Part shown: positions 1 through 11,704 of the stretch, piece by piece
How positions within the stretch are numbered: the stretch's first letter is position 1
Layout of the letters: every line of letters starts with the position of its first letter
DNA from: a virus
IMG/VR virus record: IMGVR_UViG_3300032240_000041
Location: 1-31,272 of that record
Strand: one strand, 5' to 3'
DNA length: 31,272 nucleotides
Notes under the pieces: model-generated
The model's input: the letters and a program-made list of their open reading frames with translations, nothing else
What the model was told of the DNA's origin: nothing
Database searches by the model: none
Translations under genes and position numbers: made by a program

Positions 1-846
1 GAGTACGCTCGCTACGGCGAAGAGCACAAAGAGATCTACGAAACTGAGACCTCTGAGCGTTCTTTTGAAGAAGAAACCAAGCTGTCTGGCTTCTCTGCTG
101 CACCAGTCAAAAACGAGGGTTCTGCCATTCGTTATGACAATGCACAAGAGGCATGGACAACCCGCTATAACCACGAAACCATTGCCTTGGGTTTCTCAAT
201 CACTGAAGAAGCGATTGAAGATAACTTGTACGACAGCTTGTCTGGTCGTTACACCAAGTCTTTGGCCCGTGCTATGGCTTACACCAAGCAGGTTAAGGCT
301 GCTGCGGTTTTGAACAACGGCTTTAGCACCAGCTACCCCGGTGGCGACGGCGTTGCTTTGTTCAGCACTGCTCACCCCTTGATCTCTGGTGGTACCAACA
401 GCAACACTCCTTCTACCCAAGTTGACCTGAACGAGACTTCTTTGGAAGCCGCCGTTATTCAGATCGCTGCTTGGACAGACGAGCGTGGTTTGTTGATCGC
501 CGCCAAGCCCAAAAAGATGATTGTTCCCCCGAACTTGATGTTCGTCGCTAAACGCTTGTTGGACACCGAACTCCGCGTGTCTACTGCTGATAACGACATC
601 AACGCCATCAAGCAAATGGGCGCAATCCCCGAAGGCTACACTGTCAACCACTTCTTGACAGACACCAACGCTTGGTTCCTGACTACAGACGTACCTAACG
701 GTATGAAGCACTTCGTGCGTATGCCTTTGGCAAACAGCATGGACGGCGACTTTGACACCGGCAACGTCCGTTACAAGGCCCGTGAGCGTTATAGCTTCGG
801 CTGGTCTGATCCCCTTGGCATGTGGGGTTCTTCAGGTTCGTCCTGA
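1..846 (+). CDS. Major capsid protein, 3' part (gpT-like/HK97 fold)
   Basis: The reading frame is open from the first base, so the N-terminus lies outside the window; 281 codons plus stop are visible. The product builds the icosahedral shell. The C-terminal part, with GLLIAAKPKK, a VPP turn, RVGTADNDIN-like text (here RVSTADNDIN), IPEGY and the closing VRYKARERYSFGWSDP, is the signature I associate with Mu gpT-like major head subunits of environmental podoviruses. The visible part has no membrane segment or low-complexity stretch, unlike the small proteins downstream. An ATG at 187 is internal: capsid-like sequence continues upstream of it in the same frame. The gene is closed by a strong intrinsic terminator 25 nt after the stop, which fits a very highly transcribed gene. 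The assignment rests on remembered family motifs. Confidence 0.88.
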   Translation, partial: EYARYGEEHKEIYETETSERSFEEETKLSGFSAAPVKNEGSAIRYDNAQEAWTTRYNHETIALGFSITEEAIEDNLYDSLSGRYTKSLARAMAYTKQVKAAAVLNNGFSTSYPGGDGVALFSTAHPLISGGTNSNTPSTQVDLNETSLEAAVIQIAAWTDERGLLIAAKPKKMIVPPNLMFVAKRLLDTELRVSTADNDINAIKQMGAIPEGYTVNHFLTDTNAWFLTTDVPNGMKHFVRMPLANSMDGDFDTGNVRYKARERYSFGWSDPLGMWGSSGSS

Positions 847-1835: not shown

Positions 1836-2375
1836 ATGGCACGCACTACCTTCTCAGGCCCAGTCCGTTCTTTGGGTGGTTTCTATACCCAAGGTCAAAA
1901 CGCTGTTCTGACAATCACCTCCAGCGTTACGCTGAACCCTCAAGATTACGCTGGTCGTATTCTTACTGTTGGCGGCTCATTGGCATCAAACATTGTCATC
2001 ACGTTGCCCACAATCAACAGTTCAACTGACCCCTCTTCTTCTGGCCCCGGCGTAGACCCCAACACCTTGAACAACGAAGGCGTTACCTACACCTTCTGGA
2101 TTCCCACCACCATCTCTACAAGCTCGTTGAAGATTGGCACTGACGGTACTGACAAGTATGTTGGCTCTGTTTTGTCTATCGACACCGACTCTTCCAACGT
2201 AACTGTTGGTTTTGTCCCCGCAGCAAGCAATGACTTCATCAACTTCAACGGCGGTACAACCGGAGGTGTTGCTGGTACTTGGATTCAAATTGTGGCTGTT
2301 GCCGCATTGAAATACATGGTTACCGGTGTAGTTTTGGGTACAGGCACTGTTGCCACACCATTTGCCGATTCCTGA
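1836..2375 (+). CDS. Putative virion structural (head decoration-like) protein
   Basis: 179 residues, ATG preceded by AAGGAA with 5-nt spacing. The sequence is rich in Ser, Thr, Gly, Val and Ile with alternating hydrophobic residues (for example NIVITLP, YTFWIP, WIQIVAVAALKYMVTGV), which suggests a beta-sandwich. It has almost no charged stretches, so it looks like a surface or structural component. Its position right behind the capsid gene and behind a strong promoter suggests a head decoration or accessory head protein made in high copy. I do not recognise a named family. It heads the co-directional train of small genes, and its leader carries the pseudoknot candidate. Confidence 0.72.
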   Translation: MARTTFSGPVRSLGGFYTQGQNAVLTITSSVTLNPQDYAGRILTVGGSLASNIVITLPTINSSTDPSSSGPGVDPNTLNNEGVTYTFWIPTTISTSSLKIGTDGTDKYVGSVLSIDTDSSNVTVGFVPAASNDFINFNGGTTGGVAGTWIQIVAVAALKYMVTGVVLGTGTVATPFADS

Positions 2376-2388
2376 TTAGGAGCCAAAT

Positions 2389-2697
2389 ATGGCTATGCAA
2401 GGTGACATCCTAGCCAGTGCTATACGCACTACCTCTGGTACTTTAAACGACCAAGCTGGCAATGCCATTGGACGGTCGCGTATCAAGTCCATTCGTATCA
2501 TCCCAACCGCTTCCACTGCTGGAACAGTAGTGTTTAGAGACGGCGGTGCGAGTGGCACTGTGCGCTTAACAGTCAACGTGTTTGCTGGCACAACAGGCCC
2601 AGACTATATGTTGCTTCCCCACGAAGGCTTGCTGTTTAATTCAGGCATTTATGTTGACGTAACCACCATTGCTTCTGTCATGGTGTTTTATGGCTAA
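2389..2697 (+). CDS. Small beta-rich virion protein
   Basis: 102 residues, starting 13 nt after the preceding stop with Shine-Dalgarno AGGAG (2378-2382). Features are short beta-strand-like stretches: KSIRIIPTAS, GTVVFRDGG, VRLTVNVFAG, then YMLLPHEGLLFNSGIYVDV and a closing VMVFYG. This pattern, including the P-x-E-G-L-x-F turn, recalls a common small phage structural protein of about 100 residues, probably a head or tail accessory subunit. No enzyme motif is present. Its stop codon overlaps the next start by 8 nt, which suggests coupled translation. Confidence 0.75.
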   Translation: MAMQGDILASAIRTTSGTLNDQAGNAIGRSRIKSIRIIPTASTAGTVVFRDGGASGTVRLTVNVFAGTTGPDYMLLPHEGLLFNSGIYVDVTTIASVMVFYG

Positions 2698-3013
2698 GTC
2701 CCCCGCATGGACACGCAAAGAAGGGAAGAATCCGAGCGGAGGCTTGAACGCCAAAGGTCGAGCTTCCTACAACGCTGCGAATCCCGGGAAACCGGGGTTG
2801 AAGCGTCCTCAACCAGAGGGCGGCAGCAGGCGAGACTCTTTTTGCGCCCGTATGAAAGGGATGAAAGCGAAATTAACGAGCGCAGAAACCGCAAGGGATC
2901 CAGATTCGAGGATTAACAAGTCTTTAAGAGCGTGGAATTGTGCTGACGGTGGCTATATATCCAAAGCTGATGGATGCTGCACCAAAGGTAAGACGAAAGG
3001 CAGGTTTGTCTAA
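2690..3013 (+). CDS. Short basic phage protein with KGRxxYN and C-terminal DG-KGKTKGR tag
   Basis: 107 residues from the ATG at 2690; an earlier in-frame start at 2669 would lie deep in the previous gene. The first part has KNPSGGLNAKGRASYNAA, then RRDSFCARMKGMKAKLTSA and ARDPDSRINKSLRAWNC. This is a conserved small domain of unknown function that I remember from T4-like and environmental phages (possibly DUF6321, name not certain). The end, KADGCCTKGKTKGRFV, is the peptide shared with several neighbouring proteins. The protein is strongly basic and has conserved Cys residues. It overlaps the previous gene by 8 nt and abuts the next, so it is part of one translational unit. Confidence 0.8.
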   Translation: MAKSPAWTRKEGKNPSGGLNAKGRASYNAANPGKPGLKRPQPEGGSRRDSFCARMKGMKAKLTSAETARDPDSRINKSLRAWNCADGGYISKADGCCTKGKTKGRFV

Positions 3014-3514
3014 ATGGCAAAGACAAAAGTAAAGAAGATGGCATTTGGAGGGTACAGCGGCATTGGGAATGCAATGCCCCCTCAAGGTCGTCCTGCAATG
3101 CCCCCTCAAGGTGGCAGGGGCATATCCCCTAATCCGGGTCGTCCAGTTATGCCTAATCCGGGTGGGACTGCGCCCGTTGCGCAAGATATTAAATCGGCTC
3201 TTGCCAGCCCACAAATGGCGCAAAATATCGGTGATGCATTAGGTAATGCGCTTAACCAATCTAAACCCGGAACAGGAAGCACTTTGGAGCAAATGCCACA
3301 AGGTATGCCTCCTCCCCCCGGAATGCCTAATATTTCTCCTGCTGCGATGGCTATGTTTGGCCCCCCTAATGTAGCCCCCGGCGCTCCAAAAATGATGGGT
3401 GGCATGGGTATGAAAAAAGGTGGCAGGGTTTCTAATAAACCCAAAGCTTCATCAGCTTCTAGCCGTGGGGATGGCATTGCCACTAAAGGCAAAACAAAGG
3501 GTAGATTCGTATGA
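3014..3514 (+). CDS. Pro/Gly/Met-rich low-complexity protein with C-terminal KGKTKGRFV tag
   Basis: 166 residues starting on the base after the previous stop. Residues about 14-50 are Pro/Gly repeats (AMPPQGRPAMPPQGG, PNPGRPVMPNPGG). Residues about 96-130 are Pro/Met/Gly-rich. A short helix-forming stretch (DIKSALASPQMAQNIGDALGNAL) lies between them. The C-terminus has MKKGGRV, then RGDGIATKGKTKGRFV. It is almost certainly mostly disordered. No family function is known to me. The shared tail peptide and position suggest a minor virion component packaged with the other tagged proteins, which is inference. Confidence 0.75.
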   Translation: MAKTKVKKMAFGGYSGIGNAMPPQGRPAMPPQGGRGISPNPGRPVMPNPGGTAPVAQDIKSALASPQMAQNIGDALGNALNQSKPGTGSTLEQMPQGMPPPPGMPNISPAAMAMFGPPNVAPGAPKMMGGMGMKKGGRVSNKPKASSASSRGDGIATKGKTKGRFV

Positions 3515-3720
3515 CCGAGCACACAGACACCGTAAAAAATGTATTGGACGTTGTGGCAGTATTTACGACACTCGGTACATTTTTGAATCTACTTACCCCC
3601 ATATTCGGTTTAATCGGTGCGGTGGTTGGCGTAATGCGTATTTACGAAATGGCTACAGGTAAAGAGTTTTATACGCTGTTTCGTAAAAAGGAAGACAAAG
3701 ATGCCAGCAACCAGCCTTAA
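3511..3720 (+). CDS. Small membrane protein, holin-like
   Basis: 69 residues, start overlapping the preceding stop (ATGA). The N-terminus is short and polar. A hydrophobic segment at about residues 11-43 (VLDVVAVFTTLGTFLNLL then FGLIGAVVGVMRIYEM) can form one long or two short membrane helices. The tail is charged (RKKEDKDAS). Similar tiny proteins in aquatic phages are often labelled holins, but a clear 3TM-type holin lies at 16141, so this could instead be an accessory membrane protein. The last 20 nt overlap the next gene. Confidence 0.7.
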   Translation: MTEHTDTVKNVLDVVAVFTTLGTFLNLLTPIFGLIGAVVGVMRIYEMATGKEFYTLFRKKEDKDASNQP

Positions 3721-4204
3721 ACAAAAGAAATTCATGGATGCTGCGGCTCATAACCCAGCGTTTGCGAAGCAAGCGGGTATTCCGCAGTCAGTGGCCCAAG
3801 ACTTCAGTACCGCCAGTAAGGGTATGAAGTTTGGTAAAGGTACGGGCACCCGTGCTGATCGGCAAACAATCAACAACCCAAAAACCAACCAAGGCTCTCA
3901 GGAGCTATTCAAGAAAGGCGGAAGCGCTATGGCAACCAAGAAAATGATGGCTTTTGAAAAGTCCGGCAAAGATGTTGAAATGAAGGGCGTGAAAGAAGGC
4001 TCTAAAAAAGACATGGCAATGGACAAGATGCAAATGAAGAAAATGGCAAAGGGTGGTATCACTTCAGCCAAGATGGGTACTGTAAAGACCGCAGCTCCCA
4101 GCAAAGATGGCATTGCTTCCAAAGGCAAAACCAAGGGTACACAAATCAAAATGTCTGGTTCTAAACCACTGGGTATGAAAAAGGGCGGCAAAGCTTACTG
4201 CTAA
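3701..4204 (+). CDS. Lys-rich protein with MPATSxKQxKFM head domain and internal KGKTKG motif
   Basis: 167 residues, Shine-Dalgarno GGAAG before the ATG; overlaps the previous gene by 20 nt. The first 60 residues (MPATSLKQKKFMDAA, NPAFAKQAGIPQSVAQDF) match a small domain common in phages and related in style to DUF3008. The rest is a Lys/Met/Gly-rich tail with four KKM-type clusters, AKGGIT at about 116-121 and SKDGIASKGKTKGT at 134-147. The tag motif is not terminal here: a 20-residue extension with MKKGGKAYC follows. It is very basic and probably disordered after residue 60. Function unknown; perhaps packaged with DNA. Confidence 0.78.
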   Translation: MPATSLKQKKFMDAAAHNPAFAKQAGIPQSVAQDFSTASKGMKFGKGTGTRADRQTINNPKTNQGSQELFKKGGSAMATKKMMAFEKSGKDVEMKGVKEGSKKDMAMDKMQMKKMAKGGITSAKMGTVKTAAPSKDGIASKGKTKGTQIKMSGSKPLGMKKGGKAYC

Positions 4205-4216
4205 AAGGAGTTAATC

Positions 4217-4978
4217 ATGGCAAAAGCAAAAGATTTAGCAGCATTAGCTGGCCTCGCTGGTCTGGCTTATGCCATGCGTAACAAAGACAAACCAGAGCAG
4301 GAAAACAAAGGACGTCAGTCTGAAGATGCTGGGTATAAGTCTACAGAGACCCGTATGACTTCTGGTACCTCAACTGCTGATGACGATACAAAAAGTGATG
4401 TATTAAAAGCCATCACTACAAAAAGAGAAGCGCCAAACGACCAAGCTGGAAACGAAGGCGTATTGTCAACTCCGTCTGTAAAACCCAAATCAAAACCGGC
4501 TGACGTTGACTACTCTAAATACACAAGAGGTATGTCTGCTTCTGGGTCAAGCGCTCCTGCGTCAAAATCTGACACTACAGCTGATTACTCTAAGTACACA
4601 AGAGGTATGTCTGCTTCAGCACCAAGTATTACGGTTTCTACCCCAAGCACGGCGACAAAAACAAGTACTGACAGTAGAGTGCCTACACCAGAGCAGGCGG
4701 CAGCAAATCGTCAAGCAGCATACGACAAAGTAAAATCTGCTGGCTCAAGTATGGCTGATTACGTCAGTAACTTTGAAACCCCCGCAGAACGTCGTTCACG
4801 CGAAGCAGCACAAGCTCGTATGAACGCTTTACGTTCTTCCGGTGGCGCAAGAGCCAAAGGCGGCGCAATTAAAACCAAGAAGATGGCCAAAGGTGGCATG
4901 ACTTCTACAGCATCTTCTGCTTCCAAACGTGCTGATGGAATTGCATCCAAAGGCAAAACCAAGTGCAGGATGTATTGA
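4217..4978 (+). CDS. Ser/Thr-rich low-complexity protein with C-terminal DGIASKGKTK tag
   Basis: 253 residues, strong Shine-Dalgarno (AAAAGGAG). The N-terminus has a short Ala/Leu-rich helix (about residues 7-19). A long disordered Ser/Thr/Asp-rich part follows, with two copies of DYSKYTRGMSAS at about 98-109 and 123-134. A predicted helix lies at about 156-205 (EQAAANRQAAYDKVKS, ERRSREAAQARMNAL). It then ends with AKGGMT and RADGIASKGKTKCRMY. The last four residues deviate from the usual KGRxV: TGC stands where GGC would give Gly, so this copy of the tag has a single substitution. Function unknown. Confidence 0.76.
   Translation: MAKAKDLAALAGLAGLAYAMRNKDKPEQENKGRQSEDAGYKSTETRMTSGTSTADDDTKSDVLKAITTKREAPNDQAGNEGVLSTPSVKPKSKPADVDYSKYTRGMSASGSSAPASKSDTTADYSKYTRGMSASAPSITVSTPSTATKTSTDSRVPTPEQAAANRQAAYDKVKSAGSSMADYVSNFETPAERRSREAAQARMNALRSSGGARAKGGAIKTKKMAKGGMTSTASSASKRADGIASKGKTKCRMY
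4508..4617 (+). repeat. Duplicated 35-bp coding repeat
   Basis: Units at 4508-4542 and 4583-4617 differ at two positions (both third codon bases) and encode DYSKYTRGMSAS twice, 75 bp apart. This looks like a recent internal duplication. Confidence 0.8.
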
Positions 4979-4979
4979 A

Positions 4980-5837
4980 ATGATGGCCTCTCGCGGCATG
5001 GGCGCGATCAACCCTAAGAAGATGCCGGGGAAGAAAGAGATCACCCGTAAGGATGACCCAAACAAGGTTGCCATGTACGCTGGGGGTGGGTCAGTTCGTA
5101 ACCCTAGTGGCCCAGCTTCAGCAAATAGTGCAGATAACCCTAGCGGCCCTAAACGAGTTGGAAACCCCGCAGGTAAATACAGTTCGTTGGTGACAAGCGA
5201 CCTTCAGAACGCAAAAGCTAGGGCTGAAAGCCTTGGGCTGGCTAACGATGCGCAAGAGATTGCCAGTGAAGAAGCTTTGCGAGGTAGACTAACAAGCCGC
5301 AAAAAGGGTGGGTTGGCAAAACAAGCTGCCACTGCTATAGCCATGAAAGAAGCAGGCAAAAAGCCAAAGAAGATGGCTGAAGGCGGAAAAACCTTAGCAG
5401 AACAAACCCAAGAAAAGATCGCGGAGTACAACAATTCAAGTGGTGGTGGTTCATCCAATGATGTTATTCCGTATATTGAGGCAATGGGCGGCAAAGACAA
5501 ATATGGCACTATCGTCGGCGGAAAAGCTGGCTTTAGAAAAAAACTTGATGCAGATACAGACATAAGCGCGTATCTTGAAGGTAATGCGTACAAACCCAAA
5601 CAAGGTAGCTCCCAAGGAAAAATTACCGGTGGTGGGATTACATTCACTAAACGGTTTGACGACGGTGGCGGGGTCAATGCTGCTGGCAACTACACGAAGC
5701 CTGAATTGCGCAAGAAGATTGTGTCGCAAGTCAAAGCAGCCGCAACGCAGGGAACCAAAGCAGGCCAGTGGTCAGCCCGTAAAGCTCAGTTGGTAGCCAA
5801 GAAGTACAAGGCTGCTGGCGGGGGGTATAAAGATTGA
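4980..5837 (+). CDS. Basic phage protein with MASRGMGAINPKKMP start and GQWSARKAQLVAK end domain
   Basis: 285 residues from the ATG at 4980 (AGGA at 4967-4970); the next codon is also ATG, and MASRGMGAINPKKMP is the usual opening in related phage proteins. An upstream GTG at 4929 would overlap the previous gene by 50 nt and is less likely. Segments seen: a Lys-rich head with DDPNKV and YAGGG, a linker with NPSGP repeats, a helix (QNAKARAESLGLANDAQEIASEEAL), KKGGLAKQ and MAEGGK, a Gly-rich middle, and a C-terminal domain of about 55 residues (YTKPELRKKIVSQVKAA, GQWSARKAQLVAKKYK). That last domain recurs in aquatic phages, usually just before the next gene's domain. Role unknown. Confidence 0.75.
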   Translation: MMASRGMGAINPKKMPGKKEITRKDDPNKVAMYAGGGSVRNPSGPASANSADNPSGPKRVGNPAGKYSSLVTSDLQNAKARAESLGLANDAQEIASEEALRGRLTSRKKGGLAKQAATAIAMKEAGKKPKKMAEGGKTLAEQTQEKIAEYNNSSGGGSSNDVIPYIEAMGGKDKYGTIVGGKAGFRKKLDADTDISAYLEGNAYKPKQGSSQGKITGGGITFTKRFDDGGGVNAAGNYTKPELRKKIVSQVKAAATQGTKAGQWSARKAQLVAKKYKAAGGGYKD

Positions 5838-6067
5838 AAGCGCCGCAGCAATCCCTAAAAGATTGGACTGCCCAGAAATGGAGAACCAAAAGTGGCAAAC
5901 GCTCTTCTGACACAGGTGAAAGATACCTTCCTGAATCTGCAATCAAAGCTCTCAGCCCTGCTGAGTATGCTGCGACAACGCGTGCAAAACGTGCTGGCAA
6001 AAAAGCCGGGAAGCAATTCGTAAAACAACCACCAAAAGTAGCAAAGAAAACAGCAGGGTTTAGATGA
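5834..6067 (+). CDS. Small conserved basic protein, TTG start
   Basis: 77 residues. There is no ATG or GTG; the only start is TTG at 5834, overlapping the previous stop (TTGA) with a G-rich stretch (GGGGGG) about 8 nt upstream. Protein text such as LKDWTAQKWRTKSGKRSSDTGERYLP, IKALSPAEYAATTRAKR and a Lys-rich end is a conserved small domain in many environmental phages and some giant viruses; I do not recall its name with certainty. It is strongly basic with two Trp residues. Its constant partnership with the domain encoded just upstream suggests they work together, perhaps binding nucleic acid. Confidence 0.8.
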   Translation: MKAPQQSLKDWTAQKWRTKSGKRSSDTGERYLPESAIKALSPAEYAATTRAKRAGKKAGKQFVKQPPKVAKKTAGFR

Positions 6068-6270
6068 TGATCCCCTTCATACAAAAGCAAATTGAAGTTT
6101 CAGAGCGCATGTTTGAGATGATGCGTCGAGACCACAAAGAGCGTATGGAACACATAATTATGTGGGCTGATATGAATGACAGTTTGATGCGCAAACTGGA
6201 AGAACGCGACAAAGAGATTGATAGATTAAATGCGCTTTTAACGGCGTATACCACAGCGGAGAAAATATAA
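6064..6270 (+). CDS. Small coiled-coil protein
   Basis: 68 residues; ATG overlaps the preceding stop (ATGA). The protein is nearly all helix with heptad-like spacing of hydrophobics (MIPFIQKQIEVSERMFEMM, MRKLEERDKEIDRLNALL), so a parallel coiled coil is likely. It is Met-rich. No membrane segment. Function unknown; the place in the train suggests a small scaffold or adaptor role, which is only a guess. Confidence 0.72.
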   Translation: MMIPFIQKQIEVSERMFEMMRRDHKERMEHIIMWADMNDSLMRKLEERDKEIDRLNALLTAYTTAEKI

Positions 6271-6443
6271 TGGCTGAGAAATGGATCCAAAAGGCAATCA
6301 AAAAGCCCGGCGCATTGCGTGCGTCTCTTGGTGTCAAAGGTGATAAACCTATCCCTGCTAAGAAGCTGGCTGCGGCTGCAAAAGCTCCGGGCAAAATGGG
6401 CCAGCGTGCTCGTTTGGCTCAAACCCTAAAGAAAATGAAGTGA
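6270..6443 (+). CDS. 57-residue basic phage protein (MAEKWIQKAIKKPGALR)
   Basis: Start ATG shares its A with the previous TAA (TAATG). The protein reads MAEKWIQKAIKKPGALRAS, then a Lys/Ala-rich helix (PAKKLAAAAKAPGK) and GQRARLAQTLKKMK. This exact style of short protein is widespread in environmental phage genomes, often just before an adaptor gene, as here. It is very basic (about a quarter Lys/Arg) and may bind DNA or acidic partners; that is inference. The next gene starts 2 nt after its stop. Confidence 0.82.
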   Translation: MAEKWIQKAIKKPGALRASLGVKGDKPIPAKKLAAAAKAPGKMGQRARLAQTLKKMK

Positions 6444-6444
6444 C

Positions 6445-7371
6445 ATGGCTCAAACCTCCGGCAATTCATCATTTAACCTTGACCTAACTGAATTGGTTGA
6501 GGAGGCGTTTGAACGCGCCGGTGGTGAGTTGCGCACGGGTTATGACCTGCGTACAGCCAGACGTAGTCTGAATATCATGTTTGCTGATTGGGCAAACCGT
6601 GGTATCAACCTGTGGACTATTGAGCAGGGTACGATTGATTTTGTGCAGGGGCAAAACACATACGCCTTGCCTGATGACACGATTGACTTGCTTGAGCATG
6701 TGATCCGTACAGGTGCTAACGTGGCAGCAACACAGGCTGATTTAACGATCACCCGTATCAGTGTATCTACGTACGCCACAATCCCAAATAAAATTACCCA
6801 AGCCAGACCTATTCAGGTTTGGATTCAACGATATAACGGACAGACTTCGCCGACAGGGTTAACCCTAAGTGGCGCAATTACAGCCACAGACACTCAAATC
6901 ACATTGGATTCCATAGTTGGTTTACCAGCCGCTGGGTTTGTAAAGATCGAAAACGAGATCATCAATTACAGCTATATCTCAGGGAATACCCTATATAACT
7001 GTTTCCGCGCCCAGCAAAATACAACTGCCGCGAGCCATGTATCCGGCACTGCCGTATATTGGCAGCAAGTTCCCGCGATCACCGTTTGGCCTACGCCAGA
7101 CAATGCGCAACAATACCAATTTGTATATTGGCGTCTGCGCCGCACTCAAGATGCGGGTGGCGGTGTAAATATCATGGATGTGCCTTTCCGCTTTATCCCT
7201 TGTATGGCGGCTGGCTTGGCCTATTATGTAGCTGGAAAAATCCCCACGGGCGCAGAACGCCTACCATTTCTTAAGACGCAGTATGACGAGGCGTGGGAGC
7301 TTGCAGCCTATGAAGATCATGAGAAAGCAGCTTTGAGGCTTGTACCCCGTCAAACCTACATTGGGAGGTAA
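6445..7371 (+). CDS. Head-tail adaptor-like protein (P22 gp4-type tail accessory)
   Basis: 308 residues. The N-terminal helical part (LTELVEEAFERAG, LRTARRSLNIMFADWANRGINLW) followed by a beta part (FVQGQNTYALPDDTIDLLEHVIR) is the arrangement I associate with the gp4-like tail accessory/adaptor proteins that attach below the portal of podoviruses. Residues about 140-195 form an inserted beta domain (ATDTQITLDSIVGLP, FVKIENEIINY, GNTLYNCFRAQ), seen in other tail proteins. The helical end (FRFIPCMAAGLAYYVAGK, LKTQYDEAWELAAYEDHEKA) completes the fold. It probably docks the tail to the portal. Start ATG is 2 nt after the previous stop. Confidence 0.72.
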   Translation: MAQTSGNSSFNLDLTELVEEAFERAGGELRTGYDLRTARRSLNIMFADWANRGINLWTIEQGTIDFVQGQNTYALPDDTIDLLEHVIRTGANVAATQADLTITRISVSTYATIPNKITQARPIQVWIQRYNGQTSPTGLTLSGAITATDTQITLDSIVGLPAAGFVKIENEIINYSYISGNTLYNCFRAQQNTTAASHVSGTAVYWQQVPAITVWPTPDNAQQYQFVYWRLRRTQDAGGGVNIMDVPFRFIPCMAAGLAYYVAGKIPTGAERLPFLKTQYDEAWELAAYEDHEKAALRLVPRQTYIGR

Positions 7372-7373
7372 CA

Positions 7374-7862
7374 GTGGCAACGGATAAACTTAGAAAAGGT
7401 TTAGATGAGATACCGCTTGAGGGTGGTGGCGCAGGCGCGGGGTTTGGTGGCGCAGGCGCGGGGATGTCTCCGCCCGTTATAAACAGGATCTTCCCCAAAA
7501 TGCCCGGTGGTAAGTTGGAAGGCGAGTACGCACACAGAAACGTGCGTTCAGCCGCAGAACTTGAAGACATTATGTCTAGAGGGGCGGCGCTTCCTCCAGT
7601 AGGTTCAAAAAACTTACAAAAATATTGGACACAAACAAGTTCCCACAATGGGTCTACAAAAGAGACCGCTGCGGCAACAATTCGGGCAAAAATGAGCAAC
7701 ATCAAGGAAAACGAACCTGTTTTGCGGGAACATATTCAGAGATTTGATCGAGATGCAAACGACTGGGTTCCGCTTAAGAAAGGTGGCAAAGTCAAAGCCA
7801 CGGCATCTTACCGTGCAGACGGTATTGCCAAGCGCGGCAAGACCAGAGGGAGAATTGTGTAA
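7374..7862 (+). CDS. Tagged small protein (C-terminal RADGIAKRGKTRGRIV), GTG start
   Basis: 162 residues, GTG start with strong Shine-Dalgarno GGGAGGT (7364-7370 region) behind the adaptor gene. A Gly/Ala repeat (GGAGAGFGGAGAGM) sits at about residues 18-31 and comes from a 21-bp DNA duplication. The middle (residues 45-130) is mixed helical with LEGEYAHRNVRSAAELEDIM and ETAAATIRAKMSNI. It ends with KKGGKV and the shared tag. No known function. It shows that the tag is not limited to the 2.7-5 kb cluster, since it recurs between the two adaptor-like genes. Confidence 0.75.
   Translation: MATDKLRKGLDEIPLEGGGAGAGFGGAGAGMSPPVINRIFPKMPGGKLEGEYAHRNVRSAAELEDIMSRGAALPPVGSKNLQKYWTQTSSHNGSTKETAAATIRAKMSNIKENEPVLREHIQRFDRDANDWVPLKKGGKVKATASYRADGIAKRGKTRGRIV
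7425..7463 (+). repeat. Tandem 18-bp identical units (period 21 bp)
   Basis: GGTGGCGCAGGCGCGGGG occurs at 7425-7442 and again at 7446-7463, giving the peptide GGAGAG twice. In-frame slippage or duplication is likely. Confidence 0.8.
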
Positions 7863-8297: not shown

Positions 8298-8474
8298 ATG
8301 GATACAAAGCAGGTAAAACAGATCGCTGACAAAGAGGTGAAAGCCCATGAGAAGCGTATGCACCCCGGCGCTAAGAAGATGGCGGCTGGTGGCAAGACCA
8401 ATGCTCAGATGCTGAAGTATGGTCGTAACATGGCAAAAGTAATGAACCAGCGTAGCTCTGGTCGTGGAGGCTAA
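8298..8474 (+). CDS. 58-residue basic protein (MDTKQVKQIADKEVKAHEKRMH)
   Basis: Good Shine-Dalgarno (TAGGAG, 8285-8290) before the ATG. The protein is helical at the start (KQVKQIADKEVKAHEK), has a central AAGGKT turn and ends with MLKYGRNMAKVMNQRSSGRGG. Similar tiny proteins with conserved KYGRNMAKV and a GRG end occur in other aquatic phages. It is basic and Met-rich. Function unknown. Confidence 0.8.
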   Translation: MDTKQVKQIADKEVKAHEKRMHPGAKKMAAGGKTNAQMLKYGRNMAKVMNQRSSGRGG

Positions 8475-8475
8475 C

Positions 8476-8718
8476 ATGGCTGAATTTGATTATTTCCCAG
8501 CAGATACCAAAGACCCTTGCGGCAAGTACACACAGCCCAAGGTCTACAAATCTGTGACTGTTGGTGAAGAGCCAGCAATAGAGACTATGCGTAAAGCTAA
8601 CGTGTCCGTTGCCAACACTCGCAGTCAAGACTATCCCCCCACTAAGACCAGCGGTGTGCAAATGCGTGGCGGCGGTGCGGCTACCAAAGGCAAGATGGCT
8701 CGGGGGCCAATGGCGTGA
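8476..8718 (+). CDS. Small protein ending GAATKGKMARGPMA
   Basis: 80 residues from the ATG at 8476, one base after the previous stop, with Shine-Dalgarno GGAGG (8466-8470). It opens MAEFDYFPADTKDP and closes with MRGGGAATKGKMARGPMA, a conserved C-terminus in this phage group. The end is a looser relative of the DGIA-KGKTKGR tag (GAATKGKxARG). Little predicted structure. It lies immediately before the second adaptor-like gene and probably belongs to the same assembly step; function unknown. Confidence 0.78.
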   Translation: MAEFDYFPADTKDPCGKYTQPKVYKSVTVGEEPAIETMRKANVSVANTRSQDYPPTKTSGVQMRGGGAATKGKMARGPMA

Positions 8719-10615: not shown

Positions 10616-11704
10616 GTGTTTGGCATATCGGCCTTCTCACAAGCCCCATTCTCGGCGCTTGGTAACTCTGTCTATAACGCAGACATAGCAGAGACAGCCA
10701 CGGCGACGGATAGCGTTTCATCGCTTTTAACTTTCCTCTCTTCTGTATCTGAGACATCGACTGCCACGGATGCGGTGTCTTCTTTGGTTACTTTCCCTGC
10801 GGCGGTATCTGAAACATCGACGGCTACAGATTCAACCTCATCAGCCCAAACATTTGTTACCGCAGTCAGCGAGGCATCGACAGCAACAGACTCATTTGCC
10901 GCAACCCAAACATTTGCGTCCACGGTTAGCGAGACAGCTACAGCCACGGATTCAGTGTCTGGCACACAAAGCTTTGCGTCTTCCGTGTCCGAAACATCAA
11001 CTGCTACAGATTCAGATGCGGTAGCTGCCAGCACATTCAATGCACCGGTAACAGAAGCCTCCACAGCAACAGACTCAACTTCATCCACGGCAACATTTGG
11101 TACATCAATCAGTGAGGCGGCAACAGCTACTGACACGGATTCAGCAGCACAAACTTTTGCCACCAGCGTGGCGGAAACAGCGACAGCTACGGATTCAGTT
11201 TCTGGAATACCTACATTTAAATCGACTATTGCTGAGACAGCCACGGCCACGGATGATGTGTCAAGTTCATTTGCCTTTAACAGCGCGGTGAGCGAAACAG
11301 CAACTGCAACGGACGCAGTGTCTGGCGGGCTTCTTTTCTTAAATAACATTGCTGAGTCTTCTGTAGCTACAGATGCAATTGATGCGTTTGCTGTATTCCA
11401 AGCGATGATTGAGGAGTTTGGTACGGTGCTAGATGCAACGGTGGCCGTTCCAATATATTTGTGCGCCATCCAAGAGGCAGTGGCAGCGTCTGATTCGTTC
11501 TTTGCTCGGTTCTTGTGGGAGTTGATTCAAGACAGCCAGTCAGCAAACTGGGGCAATATTGATAACTCAGAAAGCACAACATGGGCGACAATCGGTGCAG
11601 CGCAGACTGCTGGCTGGTCAACCATAGACACCGCAGAACCCGCTGACTGGGCAACGATTGACGATAGCAACCCCAATACTTGGACAAAGATTGGGACAAC
11701 TTGA
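10616..11704 (+). CDS. Repeat tail protein (20-residue and 11-residue repeats), GTG start
   Basis: 362 residues. GTG at 10616 follows GGGG; an ATG at 10598 in the same frame meets a stop after four codons. Residues 1-24 (FGISAFSQAPFSALG) are a typical head for this type. Residues 25-304 are about 14 tandem repeats of 20 residues with core xETATATDxVSxxxTFxxxV; the last three are degenerate. Residues 308-362 are exactly five 11-residue repeats with a conserved Trp and TI (ANWGNID, TTWATIG, AGWSTID, ADWATID, NTWTKIG). Such regular repeats suggest a long beta-structured or fibrous shaft with a different C-terminal repeat tip. Copy number could vary between relatives. Role: likely fibre or tail spike shaft. 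Confidence 0.82.
   Translation: MFGISAFSQAPFSALGNSVYNADIAETATATDSVSSLLTFLSSVSETSTATDAVSSLVTFPAAVSETSTATDSTSSAQTFVTAVSEASTATDSFAATQTFASTVSETATATDSVSGTQSFASSVSETSTATDSDAVAASTFNAPVTEASTATDSTSSTATFGTSISEAATATDTDSAAQTFATSVAETATATDSVSGIPTFKSTIAETATATDDVSSSFAFNSAVSETATATDAVSGGLLFLNNIAESSVATDAIDAFAVFQAMIEEFGTVLDATVAVPIYLCAIQEAVAASDSFFARFLWELIQDSQSANWGNIDNSESTTWATIGAAQTAGWSTIDTAEPADWATIDDSNPNTWTKIGTT
10688..11527 (+). repeat. About 14 tandem 60-bp coding repeats
   Basis: Each unit encodes 20 residues beginning SETxTATD or AETATATD (one unit is 21, the last 19 residues). DNA units have diverged mostly at third positions and in the last 10 codons. Units 12-14 keep only the spacing and the E and D positions. 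Confidence 0.85.
11537..11701 (+). repeat. Five tandem 33-bp coding repeats at the C-terminus
   Basis: Five exact 11-codon units with Trp at position 5 and Ile at position 8 end directly at the stop codon. They are unrelated to the 60-bp repeats before them. Confidence 0.85.

Follow-up and report, generated by a model that had tools for sequence, protein, structure and literature searches.

A portable, mostly C-terminal peptide on diverse late-gene proteins of one phage lineage

The tag and its carriers

The window considered here is a stretch of 31,272 nucleotides, positions 1 to 31,272 of IMG/VR virus record IMGVR_UViG_3300032240_000041: a 31 kb record of an uncultivated virus with a partial late gene block. 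The block runs from the major capsid protein (MCP, cut by the window start) through a probable cement protein and several small proteins to the portal-tail adaptor, followed by tail and ejection-type proteins (Table 1; open reading frames, ORFs, are named by their first position). Five proteins of this block carry one peptide of about 14 residues, here termed the tag, with the consensus GG-x(5-10)-[A/G]DG[I/C]Ax[R/K]GKT[K/R]G[R/K]-two hydrophobic residues-stop.

A sequence-only reading of the window had listed five copies, and all are present at the coordinates it gave, copy 4 in degenerate form and copy 3 internally. In the four terminal copies, exactly 14 residues run from Asp to the C-terminus. 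The internal position of copy 3 is typical of the ORF 3701 family in other loci. The K/A-K-GG-x turn noted ahead of the peptide proves to be general: GG lies at most 30 residues before the tag in 608 of 631 tagged proteins, usually at a distance of 5-10 residues.

The bodies that precede the tag do differ completely, as that reading had also said: they have no Pfam or PHROG family in common, and nucleotide identity collapses upstream of the tag. Tagged proteins are short (median length 119 aa), and their bodies are basic (+0.073 per residue versus 0.009 in other ORFs) and rich in disorder-promoting residues. Among 149 body-cluster representatives, no enzymatic Pfam or PHROG domain was found. 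The known domains on tagged bodies are only two: DUF6321, and a 40-aa N-terminal module. Three single Pfam matches (E 7e-4 to 6e-3) were treated as chance.

The protein at 8476-8718, downstream of the zinc-finger-like protein 7862, had been credited with a looser form of the peptide. Its end, KTxGI[KQ][IM]RGxGAATKGxMARGPMA, differs from the tag. This type of ending (in one form KTxGIKIRGTGAATKGxMARGPMA) occurs once per locus in 133 loci, and had no match in INPHARED phages at E<=10. It is the conserved end of a single-copy orthologous family, not a portable tag.

Table 1. Tag copies, tagged proteins and landmark genes in the window
Feature	Coordinates	Strand	Description
Tag copy 1	2969..3010	+	DGCCTKGKTKGRFV, then stop; C-terminal end of ORF 2690
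Tag copy 2	3470..3511	+	DGIATKGKTKGRFV, then stop; C-terminal end of ORF 3014; stop/next start overlap ATGA at 3511
Tag copy 3	4106..4141	+	DGIASKGKTKGT; internal in ORF 3701; 21 residues follow the matched core
Tag copy 4	4934..4975	+	DGIASKGKTKCRMY, then stop; degenerate, Cys in place of conserved Gly; end of ORF 4217
Tag copy 5	7818..7859	+	DGIAKRGKTRGRIV, then stop; end of ORF 7374; stop/next start overlap TAATG at 7862
Tagged protein 1	2690..3013	+	DUF6321 (PF19846, 67.1 bits vs gathering cut-off 28.5), then ADGGYISKADGCCTKGKTKGRFV
Tagged protein 2	3014..3514	+	Low-complexity body rich in Pro/Gly/Met; no family matched
Tagged protein 3	3701..4204	+	N-terminal 40-aa module (phrog_16759/22033), internal tag, Lys/Gly-rich end, terminal Cys
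Tagged protein 4	4217..4978	+	Short hydrophobic N-terminus, disordered body
Tagged protein 5	7374..7862	+	Foldable domain of ~100 aa, disordered tail, tag; downstream of adaptor gene
Major capsid protein	1..846	+	Phage_capsid_4 / Mu gpT type; 5' end outside window; left landmark of tag interval
Probable cement (decoration) protein	1836..2375	+	Same position as, and similar start to, annotated cement/minor capsid proteins of DSL-LC04 and Pag-Yong1
Portal-tail adaptor protein	6445..7371	+	Homologous to annotated DSL-LC04 and Pag-Yong1 adaptors; right landmark of tag interval

A single capsid type and gene interval

Scans of IMG/VR with two degenerate DNA patterns yielded at least 505 tag instances in at least 225 loci (the tag-sampled set). 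The database thus holds at least hundreds of copies, and the phages that carry them form a large uncultivated freshwater group. Among the matches listed, the tag lies exactly 3 residues before the stop in 319 of 505 instances, carries a short extension (often KM.GG.C) in ~128, and ends ..GKTRA before the stop in 27; a few tags sit at N-termini, and most loci hold two to six copies. Loci sampled by the adaptor gene instead have 137 of 198 tags exactly 3 residues before the stop.

Chance origin is ruled out: in the fetched loci, which exceed 2 Mb, the motif reads forward 679 times and its backward-read version 0 times. Nor is the motif scattered at random through non-phage proteins, the distribution that the sequence-only reading had named as evidence against its proposal; among 84,980 genomes of prokaryote species, just 4 stretches match it.

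That the tag is tied to one capsid type follows from the MCPs encoded on tagged contigs, which share 74-93% identity with the window MCP. Landmarks of the same head module are present in 218 of the 225 tag-sampled loci (again among the matches listed), and the other 7 are stored pieces of 1-3 kb. Where both landmarks are present, 254 of 262 tagged ORFs lie between the MCP and adaptor genes, 8 after the adaptor, and 0 before the MCP; tagged ORFs and adaptor always share a strand. Of the loci fetched through the adaptor, all 37 with a complete interval have tagged ORFs, one to five each, and the 7 tagless ones all start less than 520 bases upstream of the adaptor, being cut off upstream. Across 24 long contigs scanned over the whole record, the copies form one cluster per record. 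The sequence-only reading had asked whether the peptide is confined to C-termini and to phages with this capsid type. The tag is restricted to the one capsid type, and most copies are exactly C-terminal, some internal or N-terminal.

On sequence homology of MCP and adaptor, and on their same order, the window phage belongs with the group of Pag-Yong1, HTVC023P and DSL-LC04. The window MCP is 72%, 63%, and 62% identical to theirs, respectively; the adaptors are homologues and gene order is conserved. The head gene order is TerL-portal-GroES-(probable scaffold)-x-x-MCP. No prohead protease family was recognised between terminase and MCP, and the proteins adjoining the MCP there are of no known function. 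Solved structures in the PDB include none that matches the tag, the MCP (checked by sequence), the adaptor, or the 3701 protein.

Cultured phages provide a single tagged type, Planktothrix phage Pag-Yong1. Searching 50,697 INPHARED phage records by tblastn with the window tag and the consensus gave no match, a meaningful negative because identical queries at that database size detect ~380-430 matches in the fetched loci. The Pag-Yong1 tag, RDGCAKRGRTKGRFI followed by a stop, was found only through reading the syntenic region of relatives, and is identical in records MinM2 and Pra-JY27. Its carrier, UMO75986.1 (annotated hypothetical), ends ..YASGGMIGRDGCAKRGRTKGRFI before the stop, with the C-terminal peptide ..DGCAKRGRTKGRFI. 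Like most of the tagged window proteins, it ends in the tag, and its gene sits in the corresponding interval of the same capsid type, with the minor capsid gene on one side and the adaptor gene on the other. Unlike them, it is the single copy found, it has GRT instead of GKT, and the DUF6321 protein of Pag-Yong1 lies elsewhere and is untagged. Records OL906435.1, OQ594354.1, and PP438419.1 are said to come from Planktothrix, Synechococcus, and Planktothricoides, respectively; all are of 65,014 bp with identical matches, and may be one phage or a contaminant. The statement that such ends occur in other environmental phages is borne out for uncultivated ones; among the 50,697 phage records, only 3 near-identical ones were found to have the tag. 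In the paper library searched, nothing pairs GKTKGR with phage, or mentions DUF6321 or Pag-Yong1. The tag is a confirmed address-like peptide, apparently so far undescribed, of a widespread uncultivated phage lineage.

Three further features of the window lie apart from the tag. An opposite-strand ORF between the MCP and cement genes (1342-1716, - strand) has an HNH-endonuclease-like C-x2-C...HH...C-x2-CH pattern. The protein at 976-1341 is highly acidic and Trp/Tyr-rich, with the tandem repeat YDEEADVWY. The protein at 10616-11704 is composed of short repeats (SETSTATDSVSS..).

Selection on the peptide and on its last codons

Pairs of tagged genes within one contig have nucleotide identity of 0.67-0.71 over the last 45 nt and of 0.28 past ~75 nt; DNA similarity ends 60-75 nt upstream of the stop codon. 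Within-contig comparison of the tags gives synonymous divergence (pS) of 0.72, which is saturated, and nonsynonymous divergence (pN) of 0.19, the latter biased low, several residues having been preset by the search pattern (pS is unaffected). Since synonymous sites are saturated and the peptide is kept, selection acts on the peptide. Nor, with pS saturated, can the tags in general be put down to a DNA-level repeat or to recent duplication. Recent copies do make up 5 of 203 within-contig pairs: in locus L062, for example, 90 identical nucleotides end abruptly at unrelated bodies.

The bodies are correspondingly diverse. Clustering divides 569 of them into 218 clusters, 166 of which are singletons, and of 180 contigs that encode two or more tagged proteins, 162 have no two bodies in one cluster. 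DUF6321 occurs untagged in G005 22802 and in Pag-Yong1 (ending ..AWNC/..AWKC); in 41 tagged variants it is extended by a GG linker and the tag. Together, the body diversity, the drop in identity, the saturated pS, and DUF6321 with and without the tag identify a grafted module under peptide-level selection.

These data bear on descent from one duplicated ancestor, in which the genes would be paralogues with hyper-variable, unconstrained N-terminal parts and the tag would have no specific sorting role. Such a family would explain why the genes are adjacent and co-oriented, and most bodies are indeed low-complexity and of no known family. The clear existence of untagged DUF6321 already weakens this account, as do the 3701 N-terminal module, which occurs without the tag on proteins of unrelated phages, and tag copies that are identical over 90 nt and stop abruptly at unrelated bodies. 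Common descent is accordingly judged improbable.

Charge might also account for a conserved end. A Lys/Arg-rich tail could bind DNA (or RNA) non-specifically, and bring its protein into the head by co-condensation with the genome, with no specific receptor. The tag has about five basic residues per 14, and the charge of the bodies (see above) points the same way. Charge alone, however, would tolerate a freer sequence than one in which Asp, several Gly, [I/C], Ala, and the terminal hydrophobic pair are (nearly) fixed, and would not demand exact placement. This explanation is given little credence, if slightly more than common descent.

A second layer of constraint is found in the last codons. 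C-terminal tags encode Gly-10 by GGA or GGG in 249 of 401 cases, versus 17 of 403 for Gly-6 of the same tags and just 11 of 166 for Gly-10 of internal tags (contrasts p about 1e-38 to 1e-77). In most cases, the start of the next ORF falls at -4 to +3 nt relative to the stop of the tagged gene, and the overlapping starts ATGA and TAATG are both seen in the window (Table 1). Codon bias and adjoining starts together indicate that the tag end doubles as the Shine-Dalgarno site of the next gene.

Could translational coupling be the main story? The tag would then be mainly a gene-organisation element, its 3' end providing a Shine-Dalgarno sequence and overlapping start through which cassettes spread, with the peptide largely a by-product. 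The codon bias and the spacing of starts are what such an element predicts. For coupling, however, about four codons would do, and no fixed peptide of 14 residues is called for; residues one to ten persist despite saturated synonymous change; and internal and N-terminal copies, which have no coupling role, retain the core. The Shine-Dalgarno role accounts for part of the constraint on the last four codons, and neither for the first ten residues nor for the internal and N-terminal copies. As the main explanation it is very improbable. The last codons, being both peptide end and ribosome-binding site, are a clear case of overlapping protein-level and RNA-level selection.

Internal-tag proteins of the 3701 family (for example in L007, L010, and L011) often have a Cys at or close to their end, following a KM-x-GG stretch; Cys is the last residue in 75 of 403 C-terminal tags. 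The N-terminal variant is a small protein starting MAYKSGADGIAKQGKTKGKNLGDSGP.. in L024, L027, L054, L072, L111, L129, L209, and L312; its C-terminal half resembles window protein 8298 (8298-8474), itself untagged.

A possible virion-loading signal

Two tagged families offer some indication of what the bodies might be. The commonest, that of ORF 3701, begins with the 40-residue module (3701-3820), which is common to jumbo-phage proteins. The module is seen on small proteins of phiKZ-like jumbo phages, and starts the virion proteins CBB_322 and GAP32_317; CBB_322 was detected by mass spectrometry in purified CBB virions, with 30 unique peptides (PMC5259590). For ORF 7374, family relatives occur in 12 other loci, and the full-length ones read all end in the tag. 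A model of the family's domain (predicted local distance difference test, pLDDT, 83) finds its best viral structural matches among ParB-type multidomain phage proteins (E 9e-4 to 0.07; TM 0.55 for the match at 9e-4), a class proposed to be packaged and injected (PMC5512222). Neither the full-length nor the domain-only model has a significant match in the PDB. An ADP-ribosyltransferase (ART) fold had been suspected for this family, from an R..YWT..E pattern and a first Foldseek list, and was not confirmed with the cleaner domain model: the top match of the full-length model is a weak one (E 0.9) to an ART toxin, the domain-only model has no ART among its PDB matches, and in BFVD an annotated ART ranks 8 for it, also weakly (E 0.9).

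The virion-protein module of the commonest family and the ParB-type resemblance of the 7374 domain are both counted in support of the following interpretation, which has about an even chance of being right: the tag is a portable C-terminal virion-loading signal for fast-changing accessory virion proteins, similar to the T4 capsid targeting sequence and unrelated to it. Late genes in the MCP-adaptor interval would supply one to six small, basic, mostly disordered, rapidly replaced proteins, each with a flexible GG linker and then DG[I/C]Ax[R/K]GKT[K/R]G[R/K]-hydrophobic-hydrophobic-COOH. During prohead assembly, the tag would attach itself to a single conserved part of the head, be it the scaffold, the portal base, or the inner capsid surface, and any attached body would thereby be built into the head. 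Loaded bodies would probably be ejected with the DNA, and some might act as effectors.

The sequence-only reading had suggested a sorting or assembly signal, and this remains the best reading, favoured by the one capsid type, the one interval, the mostly exact C-terminus, selection on the peptide, and its portability. Cleavage by a maturation protease, which it had also raised, gains no support from gene content, given the lack of a recognised prohead protease between terminase and MCP; some genes of the block have no known function.

A docking tag is an alternative to this proposal. Here the peptide would anchor accessory proteins at a structural site from which they are not ejected (the capsid exterior, the cement protein, or the head-tail junction), and the bodies would be linkers, decorations, or stabilisers. 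The placement of tagged genes directly between the cement and adaptor genes suits such a role, as do mostly disordered basic bodies and an exact C-terminus, which fits a peptide ligand. Turnover and diversity on the scale of 218 clusters would nevertheless be unusual for structural parts, and some bodies have foldable or widely conserved domains. Docking of this kind is considered unlikely.

Several points weigh against a virion-loading signal. For none of the tagged proteins did virion proteomics or binding data come to light, and no tag-specific receptor was identified. DSL-LC04, HTVC023P, HTVC027P, CRP-902, and 023Pt_psg01, which are alike in MCP and adaptor, have no tag in the region read, so the tag is not required for head assembly as such; cultured relatives whose MCP identity is 54-65% are without it there, and what the tag distinguishes is thus a sub-lineage, not the capsid fold. 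Nor does the tag strictly need a free C-terminus, given the internal and N-terminal copies. Part of the C-terminal constraint, moreover, lies at the RNA level. Finally, the suggestion of ejected effectors draws on one modelled family, 7374, with weak structural matches, and with nothing significant in the PDB.

How does the tag compare with known systems? Phage T4 marks its internal proteins (IPI and others) with a capsid targeting sequence (CTS), which sends them into the scaffolding core for encapsidation (PMC3012670). Proteins so labelled are injected by T4 into its host. Like the CTS, the tag is one short conserved peptide on highly diverse small proteins (five in the window) of one phage group. 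The CTS, however, is N-terminal, whereas the tag is mostly at the exact C-terminus with only a small N-terminal variant family. A prohead protease from the head gene set cuts the CTS off. The tag is also basic, has a GG/DG/GKT signature, and marks up to six proteins per interval, for which encapsidation is a proposal. Because of its position, and because no protease gene was recognised, the tag is not classed as a CTS member.

Encapsulin cargo-loading peptides, mostly C-terminal, bring various cargo proteins into a shell descended from viral capsids. They bind in a pocket on its inner side, and the shell operon has no phage terminase, portal, or tail genes. The tag shares their usual position and their occurrence on different proteins. 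It differs in its setting, a full phage head module that includes terminase, portal, GroES, and adaptor, and no peptide-binding site was identified on the MCP. Polyvalent or injected phage effectors, including T4 Alt, are made late with virion genes, and their entry into the host together with the DNA has been proposed (Iyer et al. 2017, PMC5512222). There is a resemblance between the 7374-family domain and domains of the ParB-type multidomain phage proteins among these. Tagged proteins in general, in contrast to multidomain effectors with recognisable enzymatic domains, are short, mostly disordered, and without such domains.

If the tag is a loading signal, accessory virion proteins could be listed from sequence alone in a widespread, otherwise unannotatable phage group. 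The tag would be an independent counterpart of the T4 CTS and, being small, C-terminal, and transferable, could serve to load foreign proteins into phage heads. More tentatively, and with the balance leaning against it, the tag may define an open-ended capsid-loaded set that is injected into hosts, any body fused to it being packaged; if this were true, counter-defence and host-takeover proteins of unknown families could be listed by reading the tag. The question of what the particles contain besides DNA becomes directly testable, and Pag-Yong1, cultured and with one copy, permits a first test.

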